A stretch of 41,027 bases of DNA from an uncultured Clostridia bacterium (lineage in GTDB: Bacteria > Bacillota > Clostridia > TANB77 > CAG-508), in the NCBI GenBank assembly GCA_944387525.1, contig CALXFF010000015.1:1-41027 (forward strand), written 5' to 3'. Positions 7,340-39,450 of the stretch are shown here, in pieces (position 1 is the stretch's first letter; each line of letters starts with the position of its first letter). The translations under genes were made by a program, and so were the position numbers. The notes under the pieces are model-generated. The model did not search any database and had not been told where the DNA came from. It saw only the letters and a program-made list of their open reading frames with translations.

Positions 7340-7387
7340 CTTTTCATCCTTTTTTCTATCTATTTATTTAGTACTTACTTAATATTA

Positions 7388-7510
7388 GCTAATGATATAT
7401 TTAGATATTTTGAAGTATATTGTGGGGACCTTTCTAGAAAATGTTTGAACGCAGTGAATTACATTTTCTTGAATGGGGATTACGGAAAAATATATAAATA
7501 TATCATTAGC
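7388..7510. mobile_element. 123-bp palindromic MITE-like element
   Basis: Outer arms 7388-7411 and 7487-7510 are inverted repeats matching at 23 of 24 positions, the first 16 perfectly. Inside is a second perfect hairpin, AGAAAATGT / ACATTTTCT, around 7435-7470. No coding capacity. It lies between the O-antigen polymerase-like gene and the upstream GT2, just after the GT2 stop (7520). Structure and size fit a non-autonomous element, possibly IS200/IS605-derived, or a strong intra-operon mRNA hairpin. Confidence 0.6.
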
Positions 7511-7519
7511 ATATCTACA

Positions 7520-8476
7520 TTATATTAATCCTAAAATCGTACAATATATTTTGTATGTTGTTTTATTTATAGTTTTCAAATACAAATCCTTTAAAGACTT
7601 ATTCTTTTTCAACACAGGATTTTGCTTCCAATTTGGAAATTTCGTATTTACATTTTCCCAAGTCTTATCCAATAATCTTTGTTGTAAGTTTTCATCTGGT
7701 ATTTTTACTATTCTAAGTAAAGAACTACAAAAAGCATATCTAACATAAACATATTCCAATTCATTTTTAAATTTATCGTAAATACCATTTTCCTTATAAA
7801 ACTCTAACACATGTTCTAAAACGTCAAAAATTTCTTGATTTCTTTCATTTTGTGTATTAGATATAGAGCCATCTCTTTGTACATAATGCACACATGGCTC
7901 TTTTAAAAATGACACTTTATTTAAGAATGGAATTAATTTATATGTAAATTCCACATCTTCATATCTAAGTCCCTTTGGAAATTGAATTTTAGTTTTATCA
8001 AGTATATCTTTTTTTATTAATTTGTTCCAAGCTACAACTCTAACTTTTTCAAGCATTTCATTTTGTCCTGAATATACTTCACCTGTATCTATCTTTTTCT
8101 TATCTGGATATTCCCAATAAAAGTCACATTCCACCATGTCACTATTTTCTTTTTTAGCTAGTTGATACATTTTTTCATACATATCTTTTTCTACATAATC
8201 ATCAGAATCTAGAAAAGCAATGTATTCACCTTTTGCATATGGCATAGCATAATTCCTGCTATCAGAAAGCCCACCATTTTCTTTTTCAAGATACACTATT
8301 TTTTCAGGATATTTTTCTAAAAATCTTTTTGCAATTAGTATTGAATTGTCTTTTGAGCCATCATTTACTAATATTATTTCTATATCTTGTAATGTTTGAT
8401 TTACTAATGTTTCTAAACATTTTTCTATATATCCTTCGACATTGTAAAATGGTACTATAACACTTACTTTTGGCAT
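7520..8476 (-). CDS. Family 2 glycosyltransferase
   Basis: A GT-A glycosyltransferase of 318 residues for surface glycan synthesis. VSVIVPFYNVEGYIEKCL opens the fold, ILVNDGSKDNS (about 35) binds the nucleotide, ENGGLSDSRNYA follows, and AFLDSDDYVEKDM carries the DxD. The C-terminal 100 residues are helical and basic. Close in motif layout to the next upstream gene (8513-9466), suggesting duplication and divergence. GGAGATGAG precedes the ATG at about 10 nt. Sugar specificity is unknown. Confidence 0.9.
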   Translation of the reverse strand: MPKVSVIVPFYNVEGYIEKCLETLVNQTLQDIEIILVNDGSKDNSILIAKRFLEKYPEKIVYLEKENGGLSDSRNYAMPYAKGEYIAFLDSDDYVEKDMYEKMYQLAKKENSDMVECDFYWEYPDKKKIDTGEVYSGQNEMLEKVRVVAWNKLIKKDILDKTKIQFPKGLRYEDVEFTYKLIPFLNKVSFLKEPCVHYVQRDGSISNTQNERNQEIFDVLEHVLEFYKENGIYDKFKNELEYVYVRYAFCSSLLRIVKIPDENLQQRLLDKTWENVNTKFPNWKQNPVLKKNKSLKDLYLKTINKTTYKIYCTILGLI

Positions 8477-8512
8477 ATTAAAAACTCATCTCCATTTTTT
8501 ATTCTTCAGTAA

Positions 8513-9466
8513 TTATCGCAATTTTAAATATAATTTAACATTAAATCTTAATATAATTCTTTTGATTAATTGTTTTAAATTATATGGTTTTATATTTTTA
8601 TACATTTTTCTTATTTTTATCTGCTTTATATAGTTTTGCAAATCTTTTTCTTTCAAATCATTAGCCTTTAATATTACTGTATTTGTATAATATCTTTTTA
8701 CTAGATCTTTTGATTTTTGACTAATATTATATTGTTCAATTTTTTCAATCATATTGTCATAATGCTTCAATAAATCCTTGGATTTTTGTATTTCTTTGTC
8801 GTAATTTACATCTCTTGTAATACTACTATTTGATTGTAAGTAATAATACCCAAATTCATTAGTAGATACAAAACTTTTTGCTTTTAATATAATTAAAGAA
8901 GTTAATCCAAAATCTTCATGATATGTACCTTTTGCATATTCAAAATTGTTTTGCTTATAAAATTCTGTTCTGTATAAATAAATACATGCTGGATCTAAAA
9001 ATTTATCCTTTGTACATAATTTTTCATATCCCTCTTCTCCAGTACATTTTTCAAGTACTGGTCCATCTAATTTTTCTAATATATTTTCATTTCCATCTAC
9101 TTTTTGCATTTTAAATTTAATTAAATCAATATTTTCATCCATATATTTTTCTAAATTACTATATAAATCTTCACTTATATAATCATCTGAATCAATAAAA
9201 GAAATATATTTGCCTGTAACATATGGAATTGCAAAATTTCTGCTATCTGACAATCCACCATTTTCTTTTTTTAAATATTTAATCTTTATTTTATTTTCGT
9301 TATTTTTTACCCATTTTTTAATAATGGCTTCAGAATTATCTTCTGAGCCATCATTTACTATAATTAATTCTAAATCATTTAATTTTTGATTATATATAGA
9401 ATCTAAACATTTTTCTACATATTTTTCAGTATTATATACTGGAACTATTACACTTATTTTTGGCAT
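8513..9466 (-). CDS. Family 2 glycosyltransferase
   Basis: A GT-A glycosyltransferase. ISVIVPVYNTEKYVEKCL, LIIVNDGSEDNS, ENGGLSDSRNFA and SFIDSDDYIS are all present. The start at 9466 (MPKIS) is preferred over an upstream in-frame ATG at 9490, because AGAGG lies 5 nt before 9466 and 9490 has no ribosome site. The product is 317 residues. Probable paralogue of the neighbouring GT2. The C-terminus is Lys/Arg-rich with repeated LIKRIILRF-like residues, consistent with peripheral membrane association. Confidence 0.9.
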   Translation of the reverse strand: MPKISVIVPVYNTEKYVEKCLDSIYNQKLNDLELIIVNDGSEDNSEAIIKKWVKNNENKIKIKYLKKENGGLSDSRNFAIPYVTGKYISFIDSDDYISEDLYSNLEKYMDENIDLIKFKMQKVDGNENILEKLDGPVLEKCTGEEGYEKLCTKDKFLDPACIYLYRTEFYKQNNFEYAKGTYHEDFGLTSLIILKAKSFVSTNEFGYYYLQSNSSITRDVNYDKEIQKSKDLLKHYDNMIEKIEQYNISQKSKDLVKRYYTNTVILKANDLKEKDLQNYIKQIKIRKMYKNIKPYNLKQLIKRIILRFNVKLYLKLR

Positions 9467-9509
9467 TTTTACCTCTTTTAATTTTCTCATTATTTATATT
9501 TTTTCAATT

Positions 9510-9809
9510 CTATTTCTTTCCTTTTATTTTTTCTCTTAATTTCCACCATCTAGAATTTTTTATTGCTTCATTTTCTGCTTTATATTTTTCTAATTTTTTA
9601 ACTGCTTCTCCAAATTCTTTTTTATAGTATTGTAGTTCTTCTTCCTTTTCTTTTTCTAACTTCTCTCTATCTTCTTTGCTTTTCTCTTTTAATTTCTTAT
9701 ATTCTTCTTCTTTTTTCTGCAACACATATTGATATTCCGCCAATATTCCTTGATTTGCCAATTCTAAATTATAAATTTTTTTATTTAATTCTTTTAACTC
9801 TTTATCCAT
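9510..9809 (-). CDS. Small coiled-coil protein of the glycan locus
   Basis: A 99-residue, highly charged protein (mostly K and E) predicted as one long coiled coil from residue 1 to about 80. It ends in NSRWWKLREKIKGKK, a tail I recognise from the ends of polysaccharide glycosyltransferases and related proteins. Its ATG lies inside the end of the preceding GT4 gene (8-nt overlap), so it is translationally coupled. No enzymatic motif. It may scaffold or size-regulate the glycosyltransferase complex; this is inference. Confidence 0.7.
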   Translation of the reverse strand: MDKELKELNKKIYNLELANQGILAEYQYVLQKKEEEYKKLKEKSKEDREKLEKEKEEELQYYKKEFGEAVKKLEKYKAENEAIKNSRWWKLREKIKGKK

Positions 9810-10848
9810 TATTCATCTCATTCCTTTTTTTATTTAAATTATAATCAAAAAATTCTTTAAATTGCATAGCAACGACATCATATGTGCATTTTTTTGACTC
9901 CTCTAAATTTTCTTCTGATAATTCTTTAAACATTTCTTTATTATTAAATAAATACTTTATTTTTTCTTTTAAATTATCTTTACTTCTTTCAAACATAAAC
10001 TCTTTTTGTTTTGGTCCTAGCACATCTTCAACAATTCCAACATTAGTTGAAATTATTGGCACTCCACTACACATTGACTCAAGTATTGGATTTGGCCCTC
10101 CTTCTGTTTTTGAAGCACAAACATATATATCTATACTGTTATAGAATTCTTTCATTTCATCAATAGGAATAAGTCTATCTTTTTTATCAGCTAACTTTAA
10201 TTCTACATTATATCCTTCTTCTTTTAACTCTTTTATTGCTGGTTTGATTATTGTATAAACACCTTTTGAATCTTCAAGTTTTTCCCAATCTCCCCATTTA
10301 CTATTTCCAGCCCAACCTATTGTTATTTGCCTATCTTGTAAATTTTCTACATTAAATCTCTCCAAATTTTCTGGTATAAAAAATTTATCATTAACGCCAT
10401 TAATTATGAACCTTTGTGGTTTTTTACATCCTAAATTACTATATATATCAAATAATTTACTTGATAATGTATAATATCCATCTAATAAATTTAAAACTTT
10501 TTTTGTTTTTTCAATGTTTTTTTCATCAAGTAAAGCATGGTCAGGTATGCAGGTTGTTTTTACTATTTTAGTGAATTTTTCTTTTATAAATTCATCTACA
10601 TCAAGATTGTTTCTTTTAAATACTACATTTTCATTATCCAACGAAAATAATAATCCTCTCCAGAAGAAATGAACTAAATCACAATCTTGTACTAATAATA
10701 TAGTTTGTAAAACATTTTCTTGAAGAGCTGTTGTTGCCGGTATAATTTTAAAATCATAATAATCCTTTAATTTTTCTGATAACACAACAGCTTTATTGTA
10801 AAAAGCCCAATTATCTGTATCTGTTATGAACGCAATTTTTGGTTTCAT
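9802..10848 (-). CDS. Family 4-like glycosyltransferase
   Basis: A GT-B glycosyltransferase of 348 residues. The C-terminal nucleotide-sugar half is clear: IGWAGNSKWGDWEKL, DIYVCASKTEGGPNPILESM (acidic pair of the EX7E motif) and VPIISTNVGIVEDVL. The N-terminal half begins KIAFITDTDNWAFYNKA. The start at 10848 is chosen because GGGAGGG lies 6 nt upstream. The frame continues upstream to a TTG at 10863 only by running through that ribosome site. Overlaps the downstream coiled-coil gene by 8 nt. Confidence 0.88.
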   Translation of the reverse strand: MKPKIAFITDTDNWAFYNKAVVLSEKLKDYYDFKIIPATTALQENVLQTILLVQDCDLVHFFWRGLLFSLDNENVVFKRNNLDVDEFIKEKFTKIVKTTCIPDHALLDEKNIEKTKKVLNLLDGYYTLSSKLFDIYSNLGCKKPQRFIINGVNDKFFIPENLERFNVENLQDRQITIGWAGNSKWGDWEKLEDSKGVYTIIKPAIKELKEEGYNVELKLADKKDRLIPIDEMKEFYNSIDIYVCASKTEGGPNPILESMCSGVPIISTNVGIVEDVLGPKQKEFMFERSKDNLKEKIKYLFNNKEMFKELSEENLEESKKCTYDVVAMQFKEFFDYNLNKKRNEMNNG

Positions 10849-28047: not shown

Positions 28048-28066
28048 AAAGAGCTTTTTGCTCTTT
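28048..28066 (-). terminator. Candidate terminator downstream of the CYTH gene
   Basis: AAAGAGC / GCTCTTT (28048-28054 with 28060-28066) with a 5-nt loop. The minus-strand 3' side reads AACTTTTATTA and the plus-strand side ATTATTTTATT, so it may act on either strand between convergent units. Confidence 0.5.
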
Positions 28067-28148
28067 ATTATTTTATTCAAAAGTTTATATATTCTGTTTA
28101 TTTAACCACTCTTCCATTGTCTCATTTCTTTTTTACTGTTGTTTATTT

Positions 28149-28743
28149 TTATTTTAAATTCATTTTAATTAGTTCATAAGCTTTTTTTATATCTATATCA
28201 TTTGAAATTTGTATTCCAGTATTCTTTATTTTTTCAAACATTTTCTGTTTTACACTATTAATCTCTCCTAATGTTTTTCCTTCAAAATCGCTTTCATTCT
28301 CGAATTCAATTAAAGTTCCTAAATTCTCAACTATTTGAAATGCAAATTCTATTCCATCTTTTGCATAAACAATGACATGATATTTAACTTCAATAAGTTC
28401 ATTAAATCCTAAACATTCAAATATTTTTTTGGCTTTCTCTATATCTTGAATATCTAGACTTATTTTTTGCTCTGATATTACATTACCGCTTAATATCATA
28501 TTCTTTATTTTTATATGTAATCTTTTTTAATTCTTTATCAGCTAATTTTAGATTTCTAAGTAATATTGAATTCTTTAAAATATGTTGTATATTATTTTTA
28601 TTCAATTCTTGTAATTTTGAAGTCATATAGATATCATCAATATCACTTTCTCTTATAATCTTAAATCCTAGGTGTTTTAATTTTTCAAAAGCATCTTCAA
28701 TGTCTTCATTGACTTTTACAGTAATCTCTATTTGTTTCATCAT
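28149..28743 (-). pseudogene. CYTH-domain protein (CyaB/ThTPase-like), broken by a single-base insertion
   Basis: Two overlapping frames: 28743 to 28483 (N-terminal half, QIEITVKV, LKHLGFKIIRESDIDDIY) and 28499 to 28149 (C-terminal half, KAKKIFECLGFNELIEV, GTLIEFE, repeated family elements). Removing one base (G at 28488 on the plus strand) joins them as KNKEYDIKGNVISEQK and gives 197 residues, the normal CYTH length. The family hydrolyses or cyclises triphosphates (thiamine triphosphate, ATP). The first Glu of the ExExK signature is Gln here, so activity is uncertain. AAAGGAG lies 6 nt before the ATG. Confidence 0.72.
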
Positions 28744-28776
28744 TAAATTCTCCTTTCATAATTAAAAAAATTATAT

Positions 28777-28819
28777 AACAAAAAGGAGAAATTTTCAATA
28801 AAAATTTCTCCTTTTTGTT
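28777..28819 (-). terminator. Strong terminator of the kinase/radical-SAM/NADAR/GreA-like operon
   Basis: A perfect 19-bp stem (28777-28795 with 28801-28819) with loop CAATA on the plus strand. It lies just past the GreA-like stop (28832) and ahead of the CYTH ribosome site. AT-rich flanks on both sides let it act on either strand. Confidence 0.85.
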
Positions 28820-28831
28820 TAAGCATTTAGC

Positions 28832-29293
28832 TTAGATTCTTGTAATTTCTTCAATTTGAATTATCATACCATTGAAGTTTACGATTTCTTTAATATGTTT
28901 ACCTAAAAGTGCTTGTGCAAAAGGTGCTTTACATGACATAATATTATTATCTAAGTTTCCTTCGTTATCTCCTAAAATAATGTATGTTTCCTCTTCTCCA
29001 TCGCAAATAACTTTAACTTTTGAACCTACGATTACATTACCATCAAAATTTCTATATTCACTTGTTTCTTCGATAATTTTGCAATCTTTAGCTCTTTCAT
29101 AAAGTTTCTGTTTTTTCTGCGGAAGAGTATACATTGCTTTTACTCTAAGTTCCATATACTCTGGATTTTCTCTTAAATCATTGTCACGTTTTGCACTTTC
29201 ACCCATCTCTCTTTGAGTTTCAGTAATCTCACCATCCACATTTTTCAGTTCCTCACAAAGCTTTTTGTACCCTTTTTTCGAAATCAATTCCAT
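28832..29293 (-). CDS. GreA/GreB-like transcript cleavage factor family protein
   Basis: A 153-residue protein with the two-domain Gre layout. The N-terminal coiled coil (about 1-75) contains KGYKKLCEELKN and, at the tip, RDNDLRENPEY in the position of the family GDLSENAEY, keeping the Asp and Glu that enter the RNA polymerase secondary channel. The C-terminal domain (about 80-153) has GSKVKV and APFAQALLGKHIKEIV, matching SPIGxALLGK. Sequence is divergent enough that this is probably not the housekeeping GreA. It is the last gene of a four-gene operon, start overlapping the NADAR stop (TAATG), an unusual location for a Gre protein. Confidence 0.82.
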   Translation of the reverse strand: MELISKKGYKKLCEELKNVDGEITETQREMGESAKRDNDLRENPEYMELRVKAMYTLPQKKQKLYERAKDCKIIEETSEYRNFDGNVIVGSKVKVICDGEEETYIILGDNEGNLDNNIMSCKAPFAQALLGKHIKEIVNFNGMIIQIEEITRI

Positions 29294-29751
29294 TATTTTT
29301 CTCCTTCTTCTTGTTCTGTACGAAGTTTTTCTCTTACTCTAATAAGAATTTTTCCGTAATTGTTTTGACCATCATTATTAGGACCACACCCCCAATAATT
29401 TTCTTTAACTGTTGCCTCAACAATTCTTGCATTACCTGTATCAAGAAGTTTTTGCAAAATATCCTTGTTTTGCTTAAACTTATAATATACAGCATCAAAC
29501 ATTACATCTTGCTTAACTTCTTCCCAATCGCTCCTAAGATTTAATTTTCTATCTCTTCCTATAGTAGAAGCGATTTTAGGTGTTTCTGCATTTTGGATTC
29601 TTATTTTGGTATCAGAATCCATAAATTTTTGTGCTTGATAATAGTGTTCTGAAGTTTTCCAAAACACTCCATCTTTAAAAAATCCATAATTTGAGTATGT
29701 TGCAAGATAGCCATACTCTCCAAGTTCTTTGTAGAATCTTATTTCTTTCAT
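29293..29751 (-). CDS. NADAR family protein (YbiA-like)
   Basis: A 152-residue single-domain protein. ATYSNYGFFKDGVFWKTSEH, HYYQAQKF and ENYWGCGPNNDGQNNYGKIL match the NADAR signatures (EHYYQAxKF and WGxGxxxxGxNxxG). Family members include N-glycosidases acting on riboflavin-pathway intermediates, and ADP-ribose/NAD-linked enzymes, some in phage-defence or counter-defence settings. Here start and stop each overlap neighbours by one base (TAATG at 29751 and 29293), so it is strictly coupled to the radical-SAM-like and GreA-like genes. The exact substrate is unknown. Confidence 0.85.
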   Translation of the reverse strand: MKEIRFYKELGEYGYLATYSNYGFFKDGVFWKTSEHYYQAQKFMDSDTKIRIQNAETPKIASTIGRDRKLNLRSDWEEVKQDVMFDAVYYKFKQNKDILQKLLDTGNARIVEATVKENYWGCGPNNDGQNNYGKILIRVREKLRTEQEEGEK

Positions 29752-31406
29752 TATTTTAACCTCTGTCCGGGAACTAAATACATTGTTTTAAGGTCGGTTG
29801 CAGTATAGATTTCGTCCACTTTATTTTCGAGTTTAATATTAATTCTTTCTGCTACTTGTCCCTCTTCACTAGCTGTGTCAAACATATTTAGTTTCTCTAT
29901 TACAATACTGTTATCGTAGTTACAGCTTAATCTCCAAGAAATACCTTCTTGGGACATTTTGCTATTATACATCCCATAATTTCGTTCATGTACAGGTGTA
30001 AGTGGCTCGTTCTCTTTGCTAGTTAAACCTTGGAATTCATGAATTGCTCTTCCTAGGTTACAAATAATACCTGTATCAATTGAGAACTCTGGGTCGAAAA
30101 ATTCTTTTGCTTTGTATCCAGCAATTTGGAGAGCACTAATGTATGCATTTATCATTGGCAAAATTTCATTAATAATATAATCACTTTTTTCTGTCTTACC
30201 AATTTTTTCATATTTTCGTGCCTTATTCTTGCATATTTTTATAACTTCATATACATCCTCCCAAGTAGAATTTTCAAATTTTTCCAAACTTGAAAGATTT
30301 TTAGTCTTCTTATATTCAATAATTGAATTTACCAAAAATCTTTCAGTGACAATATAACCTGAATGTTTTCTTGTTTCTGTTTTAGGATAGATATTAATTC
30401 CATAATTTCCATCTTCTGTAATGCTAGGATTAATAGAATAATAATATCCATCATAGTTAATCATAAGGTATACTTTAGACACTGGGTATATGCTTAAATC
30501 CCCGATTATAAATTTGTGTGCAATTTTCTTAAGCCTTTCTATTGTCTGAATATCTTCATACAAATCAATAGTGTAAAAATCTTCTGGATCTTCTGTTAAC
30601 AAAATACTATGTTCATAAGGATCTTTAATTTTAGATTCTCTCATATTTACATCTTTATTTTTAGAAATCCATAAATAATTACTTGTATGAATTACCTTAT
30701 GTCCTAAAACTTCAGTTTCATTGACATCTTTTATTCTAACTAAAGGCTTATATCTTATCTCTACACACATATTCCTTGAACCAGCACCAGCATTTTCATA
30801 GTAAGGTCTATAGATTCTAAGTATATTAGCCATATCCATAATATAATCGAAACGACTAAAGTTATCACTCAAACACTCCCATCCAATCTCATATGGCGTG
30901 AAAGAAAGTCGTACTCCTCCTAGTCCATTACCATCAAGAGCATTAATTCTTTCATGCATTTCATTGAGAGTTGAATTATACCTACTATAACTTACTGTTG
31001 AAATTCTTGTTGTTACTCCAAGTTCTACATATGCAAGCTTAACAAATGTTTCGAGATATGGATAATTTCCAATGTCATTATCCAAGTATGGAAAAATAAC
31101 TCCATTTCTGTGTTCATATCTATCATAAGTAATAAGTGATTTTCCATTCTCTTTCTGTGGAGTTGCATACTTTAATGCTGCAATTACATTGCGAATTCTA
31201 GCTTCACTCCAAAATTCAACTCTTGCATTTGCTAATTTGCTACAAATTCTACATGCATTCAAGCAACCAATTTGTGGCTGAAAATGCCGAAGTTTAGAGA
31301 AAAAATCCTCTGACATTTCTTTAAATTTTTCGATAAGATATTCTCTTTCTTTGAAATCTTCCTCAGAAATGCACACTTCATCTGTCAATAAAAATTTTTC
31401 CTTCAT
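29751..31406 (-). CDS. Radical SAM-like protein of unknown function
   Basis: A 551-residue protein. Residues 48-55 read CLNACRIC, a CX3CX2C cluster-binding motif as in radical SAM enzymes, which would ligate a [4Fe-4S] cluster. YLDNDIGNYPYLETFVKLAY and VRLSFTPYE follow at the spacing of a TIM-barrel core. The C-terminal half (about 300-551) has no family I recognise. The motif lies further from the N-terminus than in minimal enzymes. GAGGAGG precedes the ATG inside the end of the kinase gene, with 2 nt between the reading frames. Operon partners suggest a nucleotide or nucleoside substrate, which is inference. Confidence 0.75.
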   Translation of the reverse strand: MKEKFLLTDEVCISEEDFKEREYLIEKFKEMSEDFFSKLRHFQPQIGCLNACRICSKLANARVEFWSEARIRNVIAALKYATPQKENGKSLITYDRYEHRNGVIFPYLDNDIGNYPYLETFVKLAYVELGVTTRISTVSYSRYNSTLNEMHERINALDGNGLGGVRLSFTPYEIGWECLSDNFSRFDYIMDMANILRIYRPYYENAGAGSRNMCVEIRYKPLVRIKDVNETEVLGHKVIHTSNYLWISKNKDVNMRESKIKDPYEHSILLTEDPEDFYTIDLYEDIQTIERLKKIAHKFIIGDLSIYPVSKVYLMINYDGYYYSINPSITEDGNYGINIYPKTETRKHSGYIVTERFLVNSIIEYKKTKNLSSLEKFENSTWEDVYEVIKICKNKARKYEKIGKTEKSDYIINEILPMINAYISALQIAGYKAKEFFDPEFSIDTGIICNLGRAIHEFQGLTSKENEPLTPVHERNYGMYNSKMSQEGISWRLSCNYDNSIVIEKLNMFDTASEEGQVAERINIKLENKVDEIYTATDLKTMYLVPGQRLK

Positions 31407-31408
31407 GG

Positions 31409-31978
31409 TTATTTCCTCCTCTGAATTTCCTTGAACAATTTTGCAACATTATTTTCAACATCTAAATTCCCGTTATCAAAGTACACCGTAGAACTACTGT
31501 CTAAAAACTTGGAAAAATTGTAATAGAAAGCATTTCTTCTTTCTGGATTATCTAACAATTTGTCTAACTGTGATTCACCTCTTTCTTTAATTCTTTTTTG
31601 TCTAGTTTCTTCATTTAATTTAATGAAAATTGTTAAATCAGGTTTCAGAATACCATATTTTTCGTATTCTAATTCTACATTAAGTCCTGCTGAATTGTGT
31701 GACACAACCGTATCAATTAAATATCGAACACAATACACATTTTTATTCTTGTAGTCAAAGTCTCTTTTGATTTTTTCAGAAATATAAACTACTGAAGATA
31801 AATAGTATAAATAATGTGCTATTTGTGATGTTTGTCTAACTTCACTATCGATATACTCACGGTTTGCATACTCTATGCTTGGAGTCCGAACTAAAAGCGA
31901 CCCCTCGTCCATTTTGTGCAAATTTTCCGCAACAGTACTTGTTCCTGATCCATCTAGACCAGTAATTACAATAAACAT
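31409..31978 (-). CDS. Thymidylate-kinase-like P-loop nucleotide kinase
   Basis: A 189-residue kinase. ITGLDGSGTSTVAENL (5-20) is the Walker A loop. VYCVRYLIDTVVSHNSAG fits the DRY/catalytic segment of dNMP/dN kinases. FIKLNEETRQKRIKERGE resembles the LID region. Typical Tmk is about 200-210 residues; this is slightly short and lacks the canonical DRY (YCVRY here), so it is probably a specialised relative, not the housekeeping enzyme. AAAGGAGG lies upstream. First gene of the four-gene operon. Confidence 0.82.
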   Translation of the reverse strand: MFIVITGLDGSGTSTVAENLHKMDEGSLLVRTPSIEYANREYIDSEVRQTSQIAHYLYYLSSVVYISEKIKRDFDYKNKNVYCVRYLIDTVVSHNSAGLNVELEYEKYGILKPDLTIFIKLNEETRQKRIKERGESQLDKLLDNPERRNAFYYNFSKFLDSSSTVYFDNGNLDVENNVAKLFKEIQRRK

Positions 31979-31991
31979 ATTAATTCCTCCT

Positions 31992-32017
31992 TTAAAATTT
32001 AATTATAAATTTTAAAC
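31992..32017 (-). promoter_or_regulatory. Palindrome over the operon leader, operator-like
   Basis: 11-bp arms TTTAAAATTTA / TAAATTTTAAA with a 4-bp spacer, between the predicted transcription start (about 32016) and the ribosome site. It could be a repressor site or a hairpin limiting translation. The AT-rich background lowers its weight. Confidence 0.4.
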
Positions 32018-32022
32018 ACAAA

Positions 32023-32051
32023 GTATAAATTTACATAAACATCTTGTCATA
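32023..32051 (-). promoter_or_regulatory. Promoter of the kinase/radical-SAM/NADAR/GreA-like operon
   Basis: On the minus strand ATGACA (32046-32051), a 17-nt spacer and TATACT (32023-32028). It lies in the gap between fic and the kinase gene, giving a leader of about 35 nt. Confidence 0.6.
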
Positions 32052-32119
32052 AAAAAGCCATCTAATCAACCACTTGTACGAAATTTCTGTAAATTTATAA
32101 TTACAAATTAGTATCTATT

Positions 32120-33073
32120 TTAATATTTTCCAAATTCCATTTTTAGTAGAACCATCTCTTTCAATAATTCTTTTTCTTTTAAAGTTTTTATGTTATACGA
32201 TATACCATCTCTTGTTATGTCAAGTAATTTAGCTATTTCTACTTGTGTAATACTTGGATTTTTCTTTATTAAATTAATTATTTTTTCTTGTGTAGTTTCT
32301 TGGTTAGATATTAAAATCATTCCATCTACAGCTTCATCTATAATTTTAAGTATAAACTCAATAAATTCATTTGAATTTCCTGCATTGTTACAATTTTGAA
32401 TAGCAATATAGTATTCTTCTTGATGTTTTCTTATTATACTTTCTATTGGAATATATTTAAATAAATCTTTCCAATGTGCAAGTATTGCTGTTTGCCATAG
32501 TCTAGCAGTTTTTCCATTTCCATCTGAAAAAGGATGTATAAATACAAATTCATAATGAAATATAGAAGATAAAATTAATGGATTAACATTTTCTTTTGCC
32601 TTATTCATCCAATTAAACAAATTATCCATTAATGTCGGAACCATTCTATGAGGTGGAGCCATAAAAATTTGAATATCTCCATCATATACAGCCTCACCAT
32701 GATTTCTAAATTTTCCACTATCATCTTCAATTGCAAAAGTTAATATTCCTTGTACTTTCTTTAAATCTCCCACAGAATATGGATTTATATTATCAATTTT
32801 TTCATAAGCTTTATAAGCATTTTTAACTTCTTGAATATCTTTTTGTTCTCCGATAACAGCTTTTCCATTTATTACTGCTTCAACTTGAAATAATGATAAT
32901 TGGTTATTTTCAATAGCCAAAGAAGAATGAATAGATTTAATTCTTGTTTTTTTTCTTAATTCCGGATATTTATTTATACCTTCAAAATATTTTGCTTCTC
33001 CAATTTTTTCCATTATACTTGACACATAATTTAACATCTTATCCGTAATAGAATATGGTGGATATTTTTCCAT
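32120..33073 (-). CDS. Fic-domain protein with N-terminal inhibitory motif and C-terminal HTH
   Basis: Transfers AMP (or a related group) to target proteins. 317 residues. The inhibitory motif SLAIEN (51-56) fits [S/T]xxxE[G/N] of class II Fic proteins, which block their own ATP site. The Fic core has HPFSDGNGKTAR (180-191); His is present, and Lys replaces the usual Arg after GNG. The flap region carries IFMAPPHRMVP. The C-terminal 60 residues are a winged helix (TQVEIAKLLDITRDGISY), suggesting DNA binding or self-regulation. GAAGG precedes the ATG. Separate from the kinase operon by its own position upstream of that operon's promoter. Confidence 0.93.
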   Translation of the reverse strand: MEKYPPYSITDKMLNYVSSIMEKIGEAKYFEGINKYPELRKKTRIKSIHSSLAIENNQLSLFQVEAVINGKAVIGEQKDIQEVKNAYKAYEKIDNINPYSVGDLKKVQGILTFAIEDDSGKFRNHGEAVYDGDIQIFMAPPHRMVPTLMDNLFNWMNKAKENVNPLILSSIFHYEFVFIHPFSDGNGKTARLWQTAILAHWKDLFKYIPIESIIRKHQEEYYIAIQNCNNAGNSNEFIEFILKIIDEAVDGMILISNQETTQEKIINLIKKNPSITQVEIAKLLDITRDGISYNIKTLKEKELLKEMVLLKMEFGKY

Positions 33074-33405: not shown

Positions 33406-36369
33406 ATGAACAAAGAATTATCTATAATAATAAAAAGCATTAAAAATAAAAATATCAATTATCGAGATATACCATTAGAGTTAAGAGATAATATAGATAT
33501 TATAGAAACTGAAAGAAAATCAGGAATGAGAGTATATTCTTATAGAGGATACGATGTGATTTTTAATAGATTTTTTGTTCAAGAAGATATAATAGATTTT
33601 ATTGATAAAAGTATATCCGAGACAATAACAACTAATTTTGAATCATTTGATGACTATTATGAATATTTAAAAGGCAATATATATGAAAAGTCTTGCTACT
33701 ATCAATATAAATTTACTTCAAGACAGATAAAAAAATACAAAATAGATATTAATAAGATTAAGAATAATGCCTTTATAGATTATACTATTACAGATGATAA
33801 TTATGATAATGAATTAGAAAATTTAAATTCTGAATTTAAAAATTCAAAATTTAAAAAAGAAAAAAATAAATTATGGATTAATAAAGTTTTAGATTGTAAA
33901 AATTTAAAGGATTTAATGAAAGTTCTAAATAATTTTAAAAAAAGCAAATATTACGAATTTTATTTTGAAGATATACTTATTTACTATTTCATTAAGAATA
34001 AACCGAAAAAAGCATTTAAAATTTTGATGGATTCCATAAATAACTTTGAATACATTATACCAGTATCAGAAGAAAAAATGTGTTTATATTTTTCTGCAAA
34101 AGAAGTGATAAATTCAATTAATTACAATAAAAATGTGCGAGCCCCAGTAACGATTAGCAAACATATAAAGAAATTAAAAAATTTAGCAAATGATATAGAG
34201 AATAATAATTATACAAAAGAAACTAACTGCAAATTCGATATCAAAACAAATTACTTTATAATTAAAGAATCATATAAAATAACAGGAAAACATTGTCCAA
34301 TTATAATCCGAAAGTATTTTGATGATATTAAAGAATTTATAAAATATTTAGATGGAGATTTATCTAATTGTGATTTATCAAAAGCAGTAATTTCAGAAGA
34401 AGATATAAAAAATTGTAAGATAAACGAAAATACATTATTACCATTAGATAGTACAAAAATATCACATATAGTAAATAAGTATTATGAATCTGAAAAGTTT
34501 TGGGTCTTACAAAAATGGACAGATCAAAATGGAAATATTTTACTTGATAAAAAAAGAGAGTTTAAATACTTTTTTAATTATATTTATTATTTGCATAATG
34601 ATTTGAGTAATGCTAATTTGATTTTTTGTGAAGGTCTTTCAAATCTAAAAAATATTGAAGATATTAACTTTAATAATGCACATATTAGAAGTGACATAAT
34701 GGATAAACTTGGATTAAAATATGAAATATTAAATATTTCTAATAATCTTCTTTCATTTGAAAAAACGATAAATAATGAGAAAGAAACACAATTAGTATTA
34801 CATGAAAGTAGAGATTTATTATTAAACGAATCAATGAACGATTATAATAGTTATGCAAGAGTTTCTTATGTTTCAGATATACATTTAATGCATAGATTAC
34901 AAAATTGTAAATCAATATTTGATATTGAATTTACAATAAAAGATATTATAATAAATATCCTGAAAAATAGTAGTAGGATTCTTTTAATAGGTGGAGATGT
35001 ATCGTCTAGCTGTGATTTTTATAAAGTGTTTATTACTGAATTGTCAAAAGAACTAAAAAGATATAGCATAAAAGTTATATTTATTTTGGGTAATCATGAA
35101 TTATGGGATTTTGCTGGGTATAAATTACAAAGTATTATCGATAATTATAAAAATTTAATAATATCAAATGGTATGTATTTTATACATAATAATCTATTAT
35201 ATATTGAAGAAGAAAAGATAGAAGAAATTTCAGAAGAAGAAATGAATAGCTTGTCAGATGATGCAATTAGAGTAAAATTGAAAAAGGCAAAATTAATAAT
35301 TAGTGGAGGAATAGCATTTTCTGGATATAATAGTTATTTTAATGCTAATGCTGGTATTTATAGATATACACTAAATCGAGAGCAAGAAATAGACGAAACT
35401 AAAAAATTCGAGAAAATATATAATAAATTAACCACTTGTATTGCTGATAAGCATGTTATTATCTTTACGCATACTCCTAAAAAAGATTGGTCAAAATCAG
35501 AAGAATATGTTAAAAATTGGGTTTACGTAAGTGGACATACTCATAGAAATTATTTTTATGACGATGGAGAATATAGAATATATGCAGACAATCAATTAGG
35601 ATATAATTATAAAACTGCTTTTGTGAAATCTTTTTGTATAGAGTATGATTATGATCTGTTTTCAGATTATTCAGATGGAATATATACTATAACAAAAACT
35701 CAATACAACGATTTTTATAGAGGAAAAAATATTGAGATGGATTATAATAGAGATGGCGATATATTTATGTTGAAAAAAAACGGATATTATTGTTTTATTA
35801 AACCGTCTGCTAGAGGTTTATCTATATTAAACGGTGGTGCATTAAAATCATTAAATGTAAAAGATGTTCATTATTACTACGATAATATGGATAGTCAAAT
35901 TTTGCTTAATAAAGCTCCCTTAGAAAAATATACTAAATATCAAAAAATCATTTCTAATCAAGTTAAAGAAATTGGCGGTTCTGGAACAATACATGGTTCA
36001 ATTATAGACATTGATTTCTTTAATCACATATATGTTAATCCTTTTGATGGAACACTATCAGGTTATTGTGCTTCTGATATTATAAATAAATATATTTTTG
36101 CTAATATACCATCATTATTAAAGGCTAATTGTCCCACATTATATAAAAATTATACTAAAAAGTTAGGAACTGATAAATCTAATGCACTTATAGTAAAAGG
36201 GCAATCAACAGAAATAATATTAAAACCAACATATTATCCAAGTACAGATATATATAAAGCTTCAAGAGAAATAAAGAAAATGCAAAGATTAAACAATGGA
36301 ATATTAACAGTATGGCATGACAATTATAAAAATTTTTTTAACGACGACACTAGAAAACTTTTAAAATAA
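33406..36369 (+). CDS. Large calcineurin-like metallophosphoesterase with unassigned flanking domains
   Basis: A 987-residue cytoplasmic protein. The middle (about 485-730) is a complete metallophosphoesterase: VSDIHLM (about 490), IGGDVSSS (about 531), LGNHELW (about 562), FTHTPKKDW (about 689) and SGHTHRN (about 710). These ligate two metals and hydrolyse phosphoesters, possibly nucleic acid. The N-terminal 480 residues are Lys/Asn/Ile-rich with DLSNCDLSKA and DLSNANL, resembling short pentapeptide-repeat stretches. The C-terminal 250 residues (GGSGTIHGS, NPFDGTLSGYCASDI) are unassigned. Single-gene unit on the opposite strand from its neighbours, next to mobilisation genes. Probable cargo of a mobile element; a defence role is speculation. 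Confidence 0.83.
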   Translation: MNKELSIIIKSIKNKNINYRDIPLELRDNIDIIETERKSGMRVYSYRGYDVIFNRFFVQEDIIDFIDKSISETITTNFESFDDYYEYLKGNIYEKSCYYQYKFTSRQIKKYKIDINKIKNNAFIDYTITDDNYDNELENLNSEFKNSKFKKEKNKLWINKVLDCKNLKDLMKVLNNFKKSKYYEFYFEDILIYYFIKNKPKKAFKILMDSINNFEYIIPVSEEKMCLYFSAKEVINSINYNKNVRAPVTISKHIKKLKNLANDIENNNYTKETNCKFDIKTNYFIIKESYKITGKHCPIIIRKYFDDIKEFIKYLDGDLSNCDLSKAVISEEDIKNCKINENTLLPLDSTKISHIVNKYYESEKFWVLQKWTDQNGNILLDKKREFKYFFNYIYYLHNDLSNANLIFCEGLSNLKNIEDINFNNAHIRSDIMDKLGLKYEILNISNNLLSFEKTINNEKETQLVLHESRDLLLNESMNDYNSYARVSYVSDIHLMHRLQNCKSIFDIEFTIKDIIINILKNSSRILLIGGDVSSSCDFYKVFITELSKELKRYSIKVIFILGNHELWDFAGYKLQSIIDNYKNLIISNGMYFIHNNLLYIEEEKIEEISEEEMNSLSDDAIRVKLKKAKLIISGGIAFSGYNSYFNANAGIYRYTLNREQEIDETKKFEKIYNKLTTCIADKHVIIFTHTPKKDWSKSEEYVKNWVYVSGHTHRNYFYDDGEYRIYADNQLGYNYKTAFVKSFCIEYDYDLFSDYSDGIYTITKTQYNDFYRGKNIEMDYNRDGDIFMLKKNGYYCFIKPSARGLSILNGGALKSLNVKDVHYYYDNMDSQILLNKAPLEKYTKYQKIISNQVKEIGGSGTIHGSIIDIDFFNHIYVNPFDGTLSGYCASDIINKYIFANIPSLLKANCPTLYKNYTKKLGTDKSNALIVKGQSTEIILKPTYYPSTDIYKASREIKKMQRLNNGILTVWHDNYKNFFNDDTRKLLK

Positions 36370-36550: not shown

Positions 36551-36940
36551 CTATACATAAATCAATTCGTTAAAAACGATTTCTTCTGCTTGAGACTTAA
36601 TAGAATTCATTGTTCCTACCCAATAAAGCACATCTGTATTTTTCATATCTTCTGTTAAATCGCTTTTTTCTTTTAGTTGGTTAATTATTTGCTCTACTCT
36701 TGTTTGAGCCGTTTCTTGTATTTCTTTTAAATGAGTATTCAAAGTTCCATTTATAAGCATTATAGTATAATCAGCTTTTCTATACTCTTTTAGATATTTT
36801 AATCTCATTCTTCCATATTTATTTAAAACAATTTTTTCTTGTTTTGGTGCTACTATATTGGGAATATAGTAATCTCCCTTTAAATGATATTCAATACCTG
36901 TTCTTTTATCAATTTTTATTTTTGGTAATTCATTATTCAT
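36551..36940 (-). CDS. tnpV: TnpV family transposon-encoded protein
   Basis: A 129-residue protein matching TnpV of Tn4451-type mobilisable elements from clostridia: GDYYIPNI near the start, YGRMRLKYLKEYRKADYT in the middle, and YWVGTMNSIKSQAEEIV near the end, aligned with the family RYLKEYRKVTYT and EWVGRMNNI segments. Its function in the element is unresolved. AGGAGG lies 9 nt upstream. It follows the relaxase gene by 12 nt and is probably co-transcribed. No TnpX-type serine recombinase is present in the window. Confidence 0.85.
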   Translation of the reverse strand: MNNELPKIKIDKRTGIEYHLKGDYYIPNIVAPKQEKIVLNKYGRMRLKYLKEYRKADYTIMLINGTLNTHLKEIQETAQTRVEQIINQLKEKSDLTEDMKNTDVLYWVGTMNSIKSQAEEIVFNELIYV

Positions 36941-36952
36941 AACATTTTCCTC

Positions 36953-38344
36953 CTAAAATCTTATATCATTATTTTTCTTTTTACTTTTATCTTTCTTATT
37001 TTCATCTGGTATTGTTACTTTTCGATAAATGTTATTTGCAATTTCATTATCGTTGTCGTCAAATATACCATTTCTATATAAATCATCACTAACTATTTTG
37101 TAATTCTCATTTTTATCATAACAAATTCTTTTATGGAAGTGTTCCATAATACTATGCCAAAAATTTTTAAATTTCTTCAATTCTTGTTTTATTTTTTCCT
37201 TTTCAGTCTGTAATTTATTTATGATTTTATCTTTAGTCGATAATTCACTTTTTAGATTACTAATTTCATCATCTTTTAACTCTATTTGATATTTAAGTGA
37301 GCGATTTTCTTTCGCTATTTCAAAAGTACTATCTTCAAAATCTCTAATTGCCATATTTAAGTCATTTACACTTCTTACTGTTTGTGCAATATCTTTTACA
37401 TCTTCTGTATATTTTTTTAATTTCTGGACATCCTCATTTGAAATAATCATATTATTTTTGTTTAGCTTAGTAGGCTTTAAATTATCTAATATTTGATTTA
37501 CATCATTGCTTTTGTTATCAAGTGTTTTGGTTTGATTATTAGCTTCAGTTAGTTTTTGTTCCTTTTGTTTTAGTTGTCTTTTGATTTCTCTGTAATTTCC
37601 CATATCTTTAACATCAATATCTTGATTTCTGCCTTTTTTCTTTTGTTTTAATAATGAGTTTTCACGATAAATTTTATTATATGATTTTATACAACAATTT
37701 CTCATTTCGTCTTGTATTCGTTGCAAAGATTCTTTCGTGAATACTTTTGATTTTGCTGGTTGTTTTCTCATACCTCTTTTATAATCTTCTTTTATTGGAA
37801 TACCAACAATATGCATATGTGGAGATGTTTCATCAAAATGAACGACTGCATTTGCTACTTTAAATTCTGGTACAATTTTCATTAAATCTTGTACTTGTTC
37901 TTTATAAACTTGTACCATTCCTTTTTTATAATATTCATCTTTATCATTCCAAAAGTCCATATCTCCAAGTTCAATGATAATTTCACAAGCTAAGTCTTTT
38001 TGTTTATCTTGTGATATATGCTTAAAATAATTCTTTATTTTTCTATCTTCACGAGTTTGTTTTTGGTTATATTCAATTCTTGCTTGTTCAAACTCATAAT
38101 TATATAAATCTTGAACATCTTTAAATAAATTATCAGTTCCATAAATTACACAAATTTCATCTTTATAATTATCATAATCTCTTAAATTATGCTTATTTAC
38201 TTTTGATAGCTGTGTAGCATTTTGTATCCCATTATTTGAAAATGATGTTTCGCCAGATGGATTATTTTTTGCAATTTCTTTTGCTTTTATTGTTTTATTT
38301 TTATCACTACCTAAATGAATAGAATATGCTAATTCTTTGCTCAT
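36953..38344 (-). CDS. Mob/Pre-type relaxase (MobV-like plasmid recombination enzyme)
   Basis: Nicks DNA at oriT for conjugative mobilisation. 463 residues. KHNLRDY (about 49-55) is the HNxR motif with the candidate nucleophilic His, and HFDETSPHMHIVGIP (about 170-185) is the HxDExxPHxH metal-binding motif. The C-terminal half is coiled coil (about 255-420), usual for this family. The start at 38344 (MSKELAYS) is chosen because AAAGGAGG lies 8 nt upstream; the frame extends to 38410 without a ribosome site. Divergent from a second relaxase, with hairpins between them. Together with tnpV it resembles the tnpV-tnpZ part of Tn4451. Confidence 0.88.
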   Translation of the reverse strand: MSKELAYSIHLGSDKNKTIKAKEIAKNNPSGETSFSNNGIQNATQLSKVNKHNLRDYDNYKDEICVIYGTDNLFKDVQDLYNYEFEQARIEYNQKQTREDRKIKNYFKHISQDKQKDLACEIIIELGDMDFWNDKDEYYKKGMVQVYKEQVQDLMKIVPEFKVANAVVHFDETSPHMHIVGIPIKEDYKRGMRKQPAKSKVFTKESLQRIQDEMRNCCIKSYNKIYRENSLLKQKKKGRNQDIDVKDMGNYREIKRQLKQKEQKLTEANNQTKTLDNKSNDVNQILDNLKPTKLNKNNMIISNEDVQKLKKYTEDVKDIAQTVRSVNDLNMAIRDFEDSTFEIAKENRSLKYQIELKDDEISNLKSELSTKDKIINKLQTEKEKIKQELKKFKNFWHSIMEHFHKRICYDKNENYKIVSDDLYRNGIFDDNDNEIANNIYRKVTIPDENKKDKSKKKNNDIRF

Positions 38345-38379
38345 CTTTTTTCCTCCTTTAGCATTTACTTCGTAGGCAC

Positions 38380-38436
38380 AGGAATTTTGCTTTGTCAAAA
38401 TTCCTAACACAAATGTAATGCTTTACATTTGTGTTA
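38380..38436. other. Two adjacent hairpins, candidate oriT/RSA site
   Basis: A 10-bp stem AGGAATTTTG / CAAAATTCCT (38380-38389 with 38396-38405) is followed directly by a 14-bp stem TAACACAAATGTAA / TTACATTTGTGTTA (38405-38418 with 38423-38436). Both lie in the 167-bp gap between divergent relaxase genes, where Mob/Pre elements carry their nick region. The nick site itself is not identified. Confidence 0.6.
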
Positions 38437-38511
38437 CAAGACAATTGAAAAATCGCAATAAACAACTTTAGTATCTATGTCTTTTCAAAATCAGTGAGGA
38501 GGTTTTTATTT

Positions 38512-39450
38512 ATGAGTTATGCAATAATAAGAAATGAAAAATATAAAAGAGATAATTTAAAGGGAATATATCGTCATAATGAAAGAAAAAATAAAAATTA
38601 TTCTAACAAAAATATAGATATAACAAAATCATATCTAAATTATTCTATAAAATCTCCTCAATATAGTTATGAAAAAGAGTTTGATATAATTAAAGAAAAA
38701 TACAATCTTAAGGGACAAATAAAAACCGTTAGTAATATTGTTTGTGAATACATAATAACATCAGATAGGGAATTTTTTGAATCCATTGGAGAAAAAGAAA
38801 CTAAAAGATATTTTGAAACAGCCTATAAATTTGTATGCGAATATAAAAACTTAGGAGAACAATATATTTTATCTGCCAATGTTCATATGGATGAAAACAC
38901 ACCACATCTACATTTGGTTTTTATTCCTGTAATTCATACTACTGATAGAAAAGGAAATGCCATTGATAAAGTTGCTTGTAGTGAGTTTTGGAAAGAAAAA
39001 GATAGTTACATCCAATTACAAAATGCTTTTTATTCATATATTACTCAAAACGGTTTCAATTTAGAACGAGGAAAATCATCTTCAAAAGAACATTTATCGA
39101 TGAAAGATTATAAAGAAATTACTAATTATGAAAAAACTAAAAAGACATTAGAAGATATCAAAATCGAATTACCTAATGTCCCTGATATTAAACACTTCGG
39201 AAAACTAACAGTAAAAAGAGATGAAAAAATACAAAAAGAAATAATTGAGCCAAAAGACCAACTTATAAAACAACTATATAGTGATAATAAAAAATTACAT
39301 TGTGAACTAGAAAAACAAGTTAATCTCATTGATAAAGCTGAAAAATTTGAAAGTGAAAAACAAACAATTTTACAAGAACAATCTAAGTTAGAACAAAAGT
39401 ATATTAAATTAGAAAAAAATTATAATAAACAAACTCAACAACTTGATTAG
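38512..39450 (+). CDS. Second Mob/Pre-type relaxase, short form
   Basis: A 312-residue MobV-like relaxase. SYAIIRNEKYKRDNLKGIYR and RHNERKNKNYSNKNID carry the classical HNxR motif near the N-terminus, and HMDENTPHLHLVFIPV the metal-binding triad. The C-terminal coiled coil is short (about 235-312), so the protein may be truncated compared with the usual 400 or more. The start at 38512 follows GAGGAGG by 9 nt. An in-frame GTG at 38494 is part of the ribosome-site region and is rejected. Sequence differs clearly from the neighbouring relaxase, so the pair is not a recent duplication. Confidence 0.85.
   Translation: MSYAIIRNEKYKRDNLKGIYRHNERKNKNYSNKNIDITKSYLNYSIKSPQYSYEKEFDIIKEKYNLKGQIKTVSNIVCEYIITSDREFFESIGEKETKRYFETAYKFVCEYKNLGEQYILSANVHMDENTPHLHLVFIPVIHTTDRKGNAIDKVACSEFWKEKDSYIQLQNAFYSYITQNGFNLERGKSSSKEHLSMKDYKEITNYEKTKKTLEDIKIELPNVPDIKHFGKLTVKRDEKIQKEIIEPKDQLIKQLYSDNKKLHCELEKQVNLIDKAEKFESEKQTILQEQSKLEQKYIKLEKNYNKQTQQLD

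Follow-up and report, generated by a model that had tools for sequence, protein, structure and literature searches.

Four open reading frames (ORFs) lie in a row on the minus strand of a 41,027-nucleotide stretch of DNA (the window) from an uncultured Clostridia bacterium (GenBank assembly GCA_944387525.1, contig CALXFF010000015.1). They encode a thymidylate-kinase-like P-loop protein of 189 amino acids (gene 1; 31409-31978), which matches PF02223; a 551-amino-acid protein that is probably a radical S-adenosylmethionine (SAM) enzyme (gene 2; 29751-31406), with the motif C48xxxC52xxC55 and no family in the libraries used; a predicted N-glycosidase of the NADAR (YbiA) type of 152 amino acids (gene 3; 29293-29751), which matches PF08719 and TIGR02464; and a paralogue of the GreA-type transcript-cleavage factors of 153 amino acids (gene 4; 28832-29293), which matches PF01272 and carries a DLREN tip. 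A fifth gene that travels with this set, for a CYTH/CyaB-like protein, lies in two frames behind the terminator of the operon at 28149-28743 and had been missed in an earlier note on this DNA, which was made from the letters alone.

The operon itself is as the earlier note described it, with the four ORFs in the positions claimed and coupled by one 2-nucleotide gap and two TAATG overlaps. The terminator, described there as having 19 bp, was recovered in a hairpin scan as an intrinsic terminator with a 20-pair stem (28777-28819, minus strand), and exceeds chance (4 terminator-like sites in the region versus 0.7 expected). The leader palindrome is also present (31991-32016, minus strand) and was seen by reading as TTTAAAATTTA-TAAT-TAAATTTTAAA, with 11-bp arms and a 4-nucleotide loop; it abuts the ribosome-binding site upstream of gene 1, and relatives have similar AT-rich leaders. 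The promoter proposed at 32023-32051 held up only in part: a promoter-like site, ATGACA-17-TATACT, exists at 32022-32050 on the minus strand as a consensus match only (10 of 12 positions), but there are 27 such sites in the region versus 25.1 expected in this AT-rich DNA, and hence the site is not above chance.

The 551-amino-acid gene turned up in 4 of 94 relatives, in 11 of 385 genomes drawn from the order, in 2 of 391 genomes of the class, both in the genus of the window, and in 1 of 398 genomes of the phylum, which was the window's own; these samples overlap, and the window's genome is counted in every one of them. An additional scan of genome contigs gave five loci, four of them apparently duplicates, for a total of 12 distinct loci in the order (G000, G770, G483, G738, G052, G209, G082, G479, G089, G513, G761 and L008). 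Homologues of the kinase, NADAR and Gre genes adjoin the 551-amino-acid gene in all 12 of these loci, the kinase being cut by the contig end in three (G738, L008 and G082). This joint recurrence bears out the claim that the genes form a unit. The recurrence in unrelated hosts to which the earlier note had looked did not materialize, as the class and phylum samples contained the four-gene set only in the window's genus and the window's own genome, respectively, and it was not seen outside the one order. A search for the 551-amino-acid protein in phages found none. The CYTH gene is present in 9 of the 12 loci, with only its first 27 residues preceding the contig end in G738, and stands before the kinase instead of after Gre in G513. 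Among the loci that lack it, the contig of G770 stops right behind Gre and that of G082 about 200 bases past it; no CYTH gene was found in G089 in the approximately 4.6 kb examined beyond Gre and the 6 kb beyond the kinase.

Alignment of the window with G483, a genome from another family, delimits a mobile cassette at 28064-32088 with 95.5% nucleotide identity, whereas ribosomal protein L21, our vertical control, is only 60% identical between the two. (IMP dehydrogenase was unusable for this purpose, having no match in 8 of 10 genomes, and L21 was taken instead.) This disparity across families argues that the cassette is one that moves horizontally. The flanks in G483 differ beyond the kinase, and beyond CYTH the edge of the cassette is set by just 106 unaligned bases before the contig ends. 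A second genome, G770, from another genus of the same family, shares positions 28774-32091 at 96.8% identity up to its contig end, with an L21 identity of 83%. Genes of mobile elements stand near several of the loci, as labeled by Pfam in the window and by reading of translations elsewhere. A MobA-like relaxase gene directly precedes the kinase in G770, and G483 retains a short stretch like the end of that gene, along with an IS200-like transposase about 1.6 kb from the cassette. A serine recombinase adjoins the cassette in G089 and G209 and lies within about 3 kb in G761, a tyrosine recombinase is adjacent in L008, and in G052 the cassette stands behind a prophage-type lysis module. The window itself has TnpV and two Mob_Pre relaxases near the cassette (36551-39450), while by eye no mobile-element gene adjoins it in G479 and G513. 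The ratio of nonsynonymous to synonymous substitution rates (dN/dS) was 0.06-0.21 for genes 1 to 4 in comparisons of the window with G483, G770 and G479; for the two CYTH parts it was 0.15-0.24 in the window versus G483 and G479, and 0.17 and 0.25 in G483 versus G479. Every gene of the cassette, both parts of CYTH included, is under purifying selection.

The product of gene 1 matches Thymidylate_kin (PF02223) at 1e-12 (48.6 bits against a cut-off of 27) and, in PADLOC, the models PDC-M51B (3.3e-29) and VakA (1.4e-17), the latter being presumably a viperin-associated kinase. Three further genes of the thymidine monophosphate (TMP) kinase family are present in the host genome; the paralogues on contigs C9 and C24 read GKTT, and the pattern had no match in the third. 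Searches with the kinase found none in phages, none that could be confirmed in viral contigs and 4 weak matches in plasmids.

The 551-amino-acid protein is more difficult to place. It gave nothing at an E value of 1 in NCBIfam or PADLOC, chance-level matches only in Pfam (0.085) and PHROGs (best, 0.015) and no match in a sequence search of the PDB. However, residues C48, C52 and C55 are invariant in all nine aligned sequences, including a relative with 29% identity over the alignment, and in each the CxxxCxxC spacing is exact and set in the context GCxNxCxxC; the C-terminal region is conserved as well. When a profile of residues 30-330 was compared by HHalign with a profile of 13 radical SAM domains of the host, the probability was 76-93% depending on the reference row (best, 93.1%), as against at most 0.7% for 18 other proteins of the window that served as negative controls. 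These 13 domains come from 18 PF04055 places in the host genome, five of which were set aside: L050, L051 and L052 because the chosen frame lacked CxxxCxxC, L053 because no reading frame was found to span its match, and L059 because it was a fragment that scored below the cut-off. When the columns were shuffled with the cysteine block held in place, 93.1% was reached in 0 of 100 cases (best, 77.6%), with this test and the masking described below run on one reference row, the best scoring of the 13. We conclude that the protein is probably a radical SAM enzyme of an undescribed family, a call that we grade only as probable because the match rests mainly on the cysteine motif. A plain prokaryotic viperin was rejected, as the protein has no family at an E value of 1 in NCBIfam or in PADLOC, whose database, we presume, contains viperin models.

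Gene 3 is a clear member of the YbiA/NADAR N-glycosidases, scoring 7.7e-34 with PF08719 (117.7 bits against a cut-off of 35.1) and 5.5e-34 with TIGR02464 (117.6 bits against 73.7), and it is the only NADAR protein found in the host genome, which is 94.9% complete. Of the two solved NADAR proteins, Escherichia coli YbiA (2b3w, 9.8e-32) is closer to it than 8bau (1.1e-9). According to one report, NADAR domains are ribosyl N-glycosidases whose substrates are riboflavin intermediates and derivatives of ADP-ribose, and they have been connected with RNA repair (PMC9503650). The context differs here, in that the gene stands in an operon with a kinase and a probable radical SAM enzyme and no DarT-like ADP-ribosyltransferase was found in the operon or among the window neighbors scanned with Pfam. 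A DarT-NADAR pair was therefore rejected, on the grounds of this missing partner and the greater proximity to YbiA.

Gene 4 matches the GreA_GreB C-terminal domain (PF01272) at 3.4e-12 (46.6 bits against a cut-off of 26.9); its N-terminal Gre domain falls barely under the cut-off (24.2 of 24.5 bits), and it scores below the cut-offs of the NCBIfam GreA models. All 12 loci retain the acidic tip DLREN, in line with the DLxEN of GreA factors; E. coli GreA (1grj) has DLKEN at the aligned position. Gre factors act on multisubunit RNA polymerases only. The host has a canonical GreA on contig C6, with the tip GDLSEN, and the Gre protein of the mobile cassette is only 31% identical to it. The earlier note held that none of these genes is the housekeeping copy, and that a Gre-like gene that was the sole greA of its genome would speak against its proposal. 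The canonical greA on C6 disposes of the latter possibility and, together with the three other TMP-kinase-family genes, supports the former; the host owning these genes, the kinase and Gre copies of the cassette are therefore accessory. A third, weak Gre-like gene (21.8 bits) lies on contig C24 of the host genome (L003, L062), about 3 kb from a further TMP-kinase-family gene.

The CYTH gene is uninterrupted in L007, L008, L025, L030 and L031 and split at one shared position in three related copies (the window, L027 and L028). In the window, the first frame (28483-28743, minus strand) encodes an N-terminal part of 86 amino acids that is homologous to the opening portion of the uninterrupted genes, and the second (28149-28499, minus strand) a C-terminal part of 116 amino acids that matches TIGR00318 at 4.3e-10, below the cut-off; the CYTH match in Pfam is below its cut-off too. 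At the break (28483-28488, minus strand), a CGG codon is followed by a stop in each of the three interrupted copies (CGG TAA, CGG TAA and CGG TGA), and CGG is the rarest sense codon (2 occurrences among the 11,006 codons of 29 genes in the window). The break looks like a programmed +1 frameshift, for which this would be the candidate site. An alternative to frameshifting is an overlapping ATG, which exists in the window and L027; none lies near the break in L028. Between Gre and CYTH, the same type of hairpin occurs in 8 of the 9 loci compared (all but G082, G089 and G513), seven of them aligned, with a different one in the ninth (G761), and a TATAAT follows the hairpin in all eight loci whose contig continues. 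The promoter-like site TTGAAA-17-TATAAT (28770-28798, minus strand), presumably that of CYTH, matches the consensus at 11 of 12 positions and is the best of the 27 sites. The terminator of the operon thus overlaps a near-consensus promoter (28770-28819), as if one element served both to end the operon and to start CYTH.

A distant cousin of the cassette was found on a GC-rich contig from a viral collection (L015), where genes for a P-loop protein, an ATP-grasp-like protein, a protein of the 551-amino-acid type and a NUDIX protein lie in a row (5563-10250). As in the cassette, the 551-amino-acid-type protein (29-31% identical) keeps the cysteine motif and has a P-loop gene close by; unlike in the cassette, ATP-grasp-like (PF02222, 1.2e-5, just under the cut-off) and NUDIX (9.2e-11) genes stand in place of NADAR, Gre and CYTH, and the P-loop gene has, by eye, a Walker A motif of GKTT and an AAA_16 match (3.7e-5) under the cut-off. 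On a mobilizable plasmid of Streptomyces globosus (L013, 4983-6136), a 172-amino-acid protein encoded beside a NUDIX gene is 55.6% identical to the C-terminal part of the 551-amino-acid-type protein of L015, and because of this resemblance we take L015 to be from an actinomycete. The common core may be a P-loop gene with a 551-amino-acid-type gene, accompanied by varying partners of the nucleotide-hydrolase type, as judged from one complete locus. Homologues of gene 2 without kinase or NADAR partners had been named in the earlier note as an argument against its proposal, and L015 is such a case in part: it has a kinase-like P-loop gene, but ATP-grasp and NUDIX genes replace NADAR and Gre.

Beyond the cassette, a gene for a Fic-domain protein with a winged helix (32120-33073; SoFic in PADLOC, 3e-43) directly precedes the operon on the same strand and lies outside the transferred segment. 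Further out, a 987-amino-acid protein (33406-36369) has a central calcineurin-like phosphoesterase domain (PF00149, 2.8e-9) and no other family match over the cut-off in Pfam, NCBIfam or PADLOC.

Two known systems share features with the cassette. CMPK2 is a nucleotide kinase of the TMP kinase family that is paired with viperin (RSAD2), and like this pair and the prokaryotic viperins, the cassette combines a probable radical SAM enzyme with a kinase of this family that matches VakA. Unlike viperin, which has about 360 amino acids, the cassette protein has 551 and no PADLOC match, and we know of no viperin that travels with NADAR, Gre or CYTH proteins. The pairing of viperin and CMPK2 provides an antiviral parallel (PMC10058120, PMC12889620). 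The other system is thmABC of Photorhabdus asymbiotica, which is reported to make 4'-thiothymidine by means of a radical SAM enzyme (thmA), a kinase (thmB) and a nucleoside triphosphatase (thmC); thmC by itself confers resistance, and what flanks thmABC varies from species to species (PMC12691670). The cassette resembles it in joining a probable radical SAM enzyme, a kinase-like protein and a putative resistance hydrolase and in that the genes cohere while the flanks vary. It differs in that thmABC belongs to Gammaproteobacteria, where thmB encodes a nucleoside kinase of the AbmG-like kind; the main text of the report mentions neither NADAR nor GreA nor CYTH (PMC12691670).

The unity of the cassette, its conservation and transfer, the conserved CxxxCxxC and Gre tip motifs and the purifying selection are matters of observation. 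What the cassette does is a matter of interpretation, and the one that we favor, at somewhat less than an even chance, is a minimal mobile pathway for the intracellular synthesis of a nucleotide or nucleoside analogue that comes with its own self-protection. We assign genes 1 and 2 to synthesis and genes 3 to 5 to protection because thmABC and viperin-CMPK2 follow such a logic. In such a pathway, the 551-amino-acid probable radical SAM enzyme would alter the sugar or base of a nucleotide, and the TMP-kinase-like protein would phosphorylate or otherwise process the substrate or product. The analogue would act as a poison of nucleic acid synthesis in an invader or rival, while the NADAR protein would cleave any analogue or intermediate that went astray at its N-glycosidic bond and the CYTH protein would hydrolyze or bind the analogue triphosphate. 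A dedicated Gre factor would enable the multisubunit RNA polymerase of the host to cut back transcripts stalled by the analogue and singles out RNA polymerase as the likely victim; the link to RNA polymerase drawn in the earlier note is retained here by way of Gre. This interpretation is supported by the retention of the acidic residues of the Gre tip in all 12 loci despite the host's own greA, and by the recurrence of a nucleotide-hydrolase-type partner (NUDIX) in L015.

Several observations weigh against this interpretation. The Walker A lysine of gene 1 is missing, the motif reading GLDGSGTST, with Thr for Lys, in all nine loci in which the start is covered, and hence catalysis by this apparent kinase is doubtful. 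The case for a radical SAM enzyme, which the earlier note had also seen, has the cysteine motif and the 93.1% profile probability in its favor, but depends on the motif and finds no match to PF04055 (Radical_SAM) at an E value of 1 for the proteins of the window, L012 or L015. With the three cysteines masked, the profile probability falls to 0.7%, with the register unchanged beyond the motif; residues 60-330, which exclude the motif, give 0.5%; and with the 13 radical SAM domains taken singly the values are 1.0-72.9%, in one case from an alignment that misses the motif. AlphaFold models of the whole protein and of residues 1-330 were both poor (mean predicted local distance difference test [pLDDT] score, 53.2), and fold searches with the whole low-confidence model gave no match at an E value of 0.001 or better; several of the weak top fold matches in the PDB are barrel enzymes, which we do not count as evidence. 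The signature of CYTH triphosphate tunnel enzymes is ExExK, whereas all nine copies of the cassette protein read ExTxK/R. The P-loop gene of L015 matches Thymidylate_kin only at 0.036, with no kinase family over the cut-off, and that version of the locus lacks NADAR and Gre. Finally, the unit contains no exporter, and no defense island was seen, with PADLOC run on the Fic, 987-amino-acid and CYTH ORFs of the window, of which Fic alone scored, and the other flanks read by eye.

A narrower form of the favored interpretation, rather unlikely as it stands but to be taken seriously, is an intracellular antiviral system like viperin-CMPK2, in which the analogue would terminate phage RNA chains and Gre would rescue the host polymerase. 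The restriction of Gre to multisubunit polymerases would suit such a division, and the sporadic, laterally moved occurrence of the cassette, with recombinase, relaxase, transposase-like or prophage lysis genes near several loci, would be in keeping with it. In addition to the PDC-M51B and VakA matches of the kinase, the NADAR protein matches PDC-M42C (5.6e-16) and the Gre protein PDC-M33C (5.8e-5) in PADLOC; however, the four matched models belong to four different candidate systems, the 551-amino-acid protein has no PADLOC match and by that measure is not a prokaryotic viperin, and a defense island was not shown. The NADAR protein also matches the antiphage model NF053876 at 3e-21, although far below its cut-off (75 of 240 bits), and NADAR-domain proteins are among the classes discussed in the DefensePredictor paper (PMC13092281). 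A more explicit version, which is speculative and which we regard as doubtful, would have a new radical SAM family and a lysine-less kinase make an RNA-chain-terminating ribonucleotide that only the multisubunit host polymerase, with the aid of Gre, could excise, so that single-subunit phage polymerases would stay blocked, while NADAR and a frameshift-controlled CYTH protein would clear the excess, in analogy to viperin.

It is also conceivable, if unlikely, that the cassette makes a nucleoside antibiotic against competing bacteria, in parallel to thmABC, with CYTH and NADAR as its resistance genes. The gene logic and cassette-like distribution are those of thmABC (PMC12691670), and Clostridia, we infer, often live in dense communities. 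However, a dedicated Gre implies an intracellular target at the RNA polymerase of the producer, whereas 4'-thiothymidine acts in DNA according to the same text (PMC12691670), and an exporter is missing from the unit.

The dependence of the radical SAM assignment on the cysteine motif, together with the poor structural models, leaves some room for the explanation that the 551-amino-acid protein is an Fe-S or zinc protein of another kind and that the unit modifies RNA, RNA polymerase or a peptide; the ATP-grasp-like partner in L015 would also suit peptide or amide chemistry. We consider this quite unlikely, given the exact CxxxCxxC in its GCxNxCxxC context in nine of nine sequences, an alignment register that holds beyond the motif even with the cysteines masked and partners (kinase, NADAR and NUDIX) from nucleotide-related families.

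The earlier note had proposed the making or the repair of an unusual nucleotide. A nucleotide pathway does remain the best reading, but with thmABC as a precedent, making is the likelier of the two. On the repair view, the operon would mend or salvage nucleotides that have been damaged or nucleic acid that has been ADP-ribosylated, with NADAR removing the adduct, Gre clearing stalled polymerase and the 551-amino-acid protein and kinase restoring the nucleotide. The linkage of NADAR domains to ADP-ribose derivatives, riboflavin intermediates and RNA repair in PMC9503650, and the role of Gre in stalled transcription, fit this proposal. The lack of an ADP-ribosyltransferase among the Pfam-scanned neighbors, the closeness of the NADAR protein to YbiA rather than to 8bau and the sporadic occurrence of this mobile set (in 11 of the 385 genomes from the order), which is odd for repair, make it, in our view, improbable. 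Chance adjacency of unrelated accessory genes, such as the vicinity of mobile-element genes might produce, was rejected as having next to no likelihood, since the order kinase-551-amino-acid protein-NADAR-Gre is kept in 12 loci with differing flanks, the starts overlap and the set has been transferred between families.

In summary, a logic of kinase, radical SAM enzyme and detoxifier is known from other systems, while the 551-amino-acid family and its NADAR, Gre and CYTH partners are undescribed in the literature searched, in which no such composition was apparent from the titles or abstract beginnings of the matches listed, most subscription papers lying outside the coverage. If the favored interpretation is correct, the cassette would add a radical SAM family that the libraries used do not recognize and would be a compact source from which a new nucleoside analogue might be isolated. 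It would also offer a direct way to test by what means organisms that make nucleotide poisons keep their own polymerase from harm. It would represent an unusual principle of self-protection, in which transcript cleavage by a dedicated Gre factor confers immunity to a chain-terminating nucleotide.

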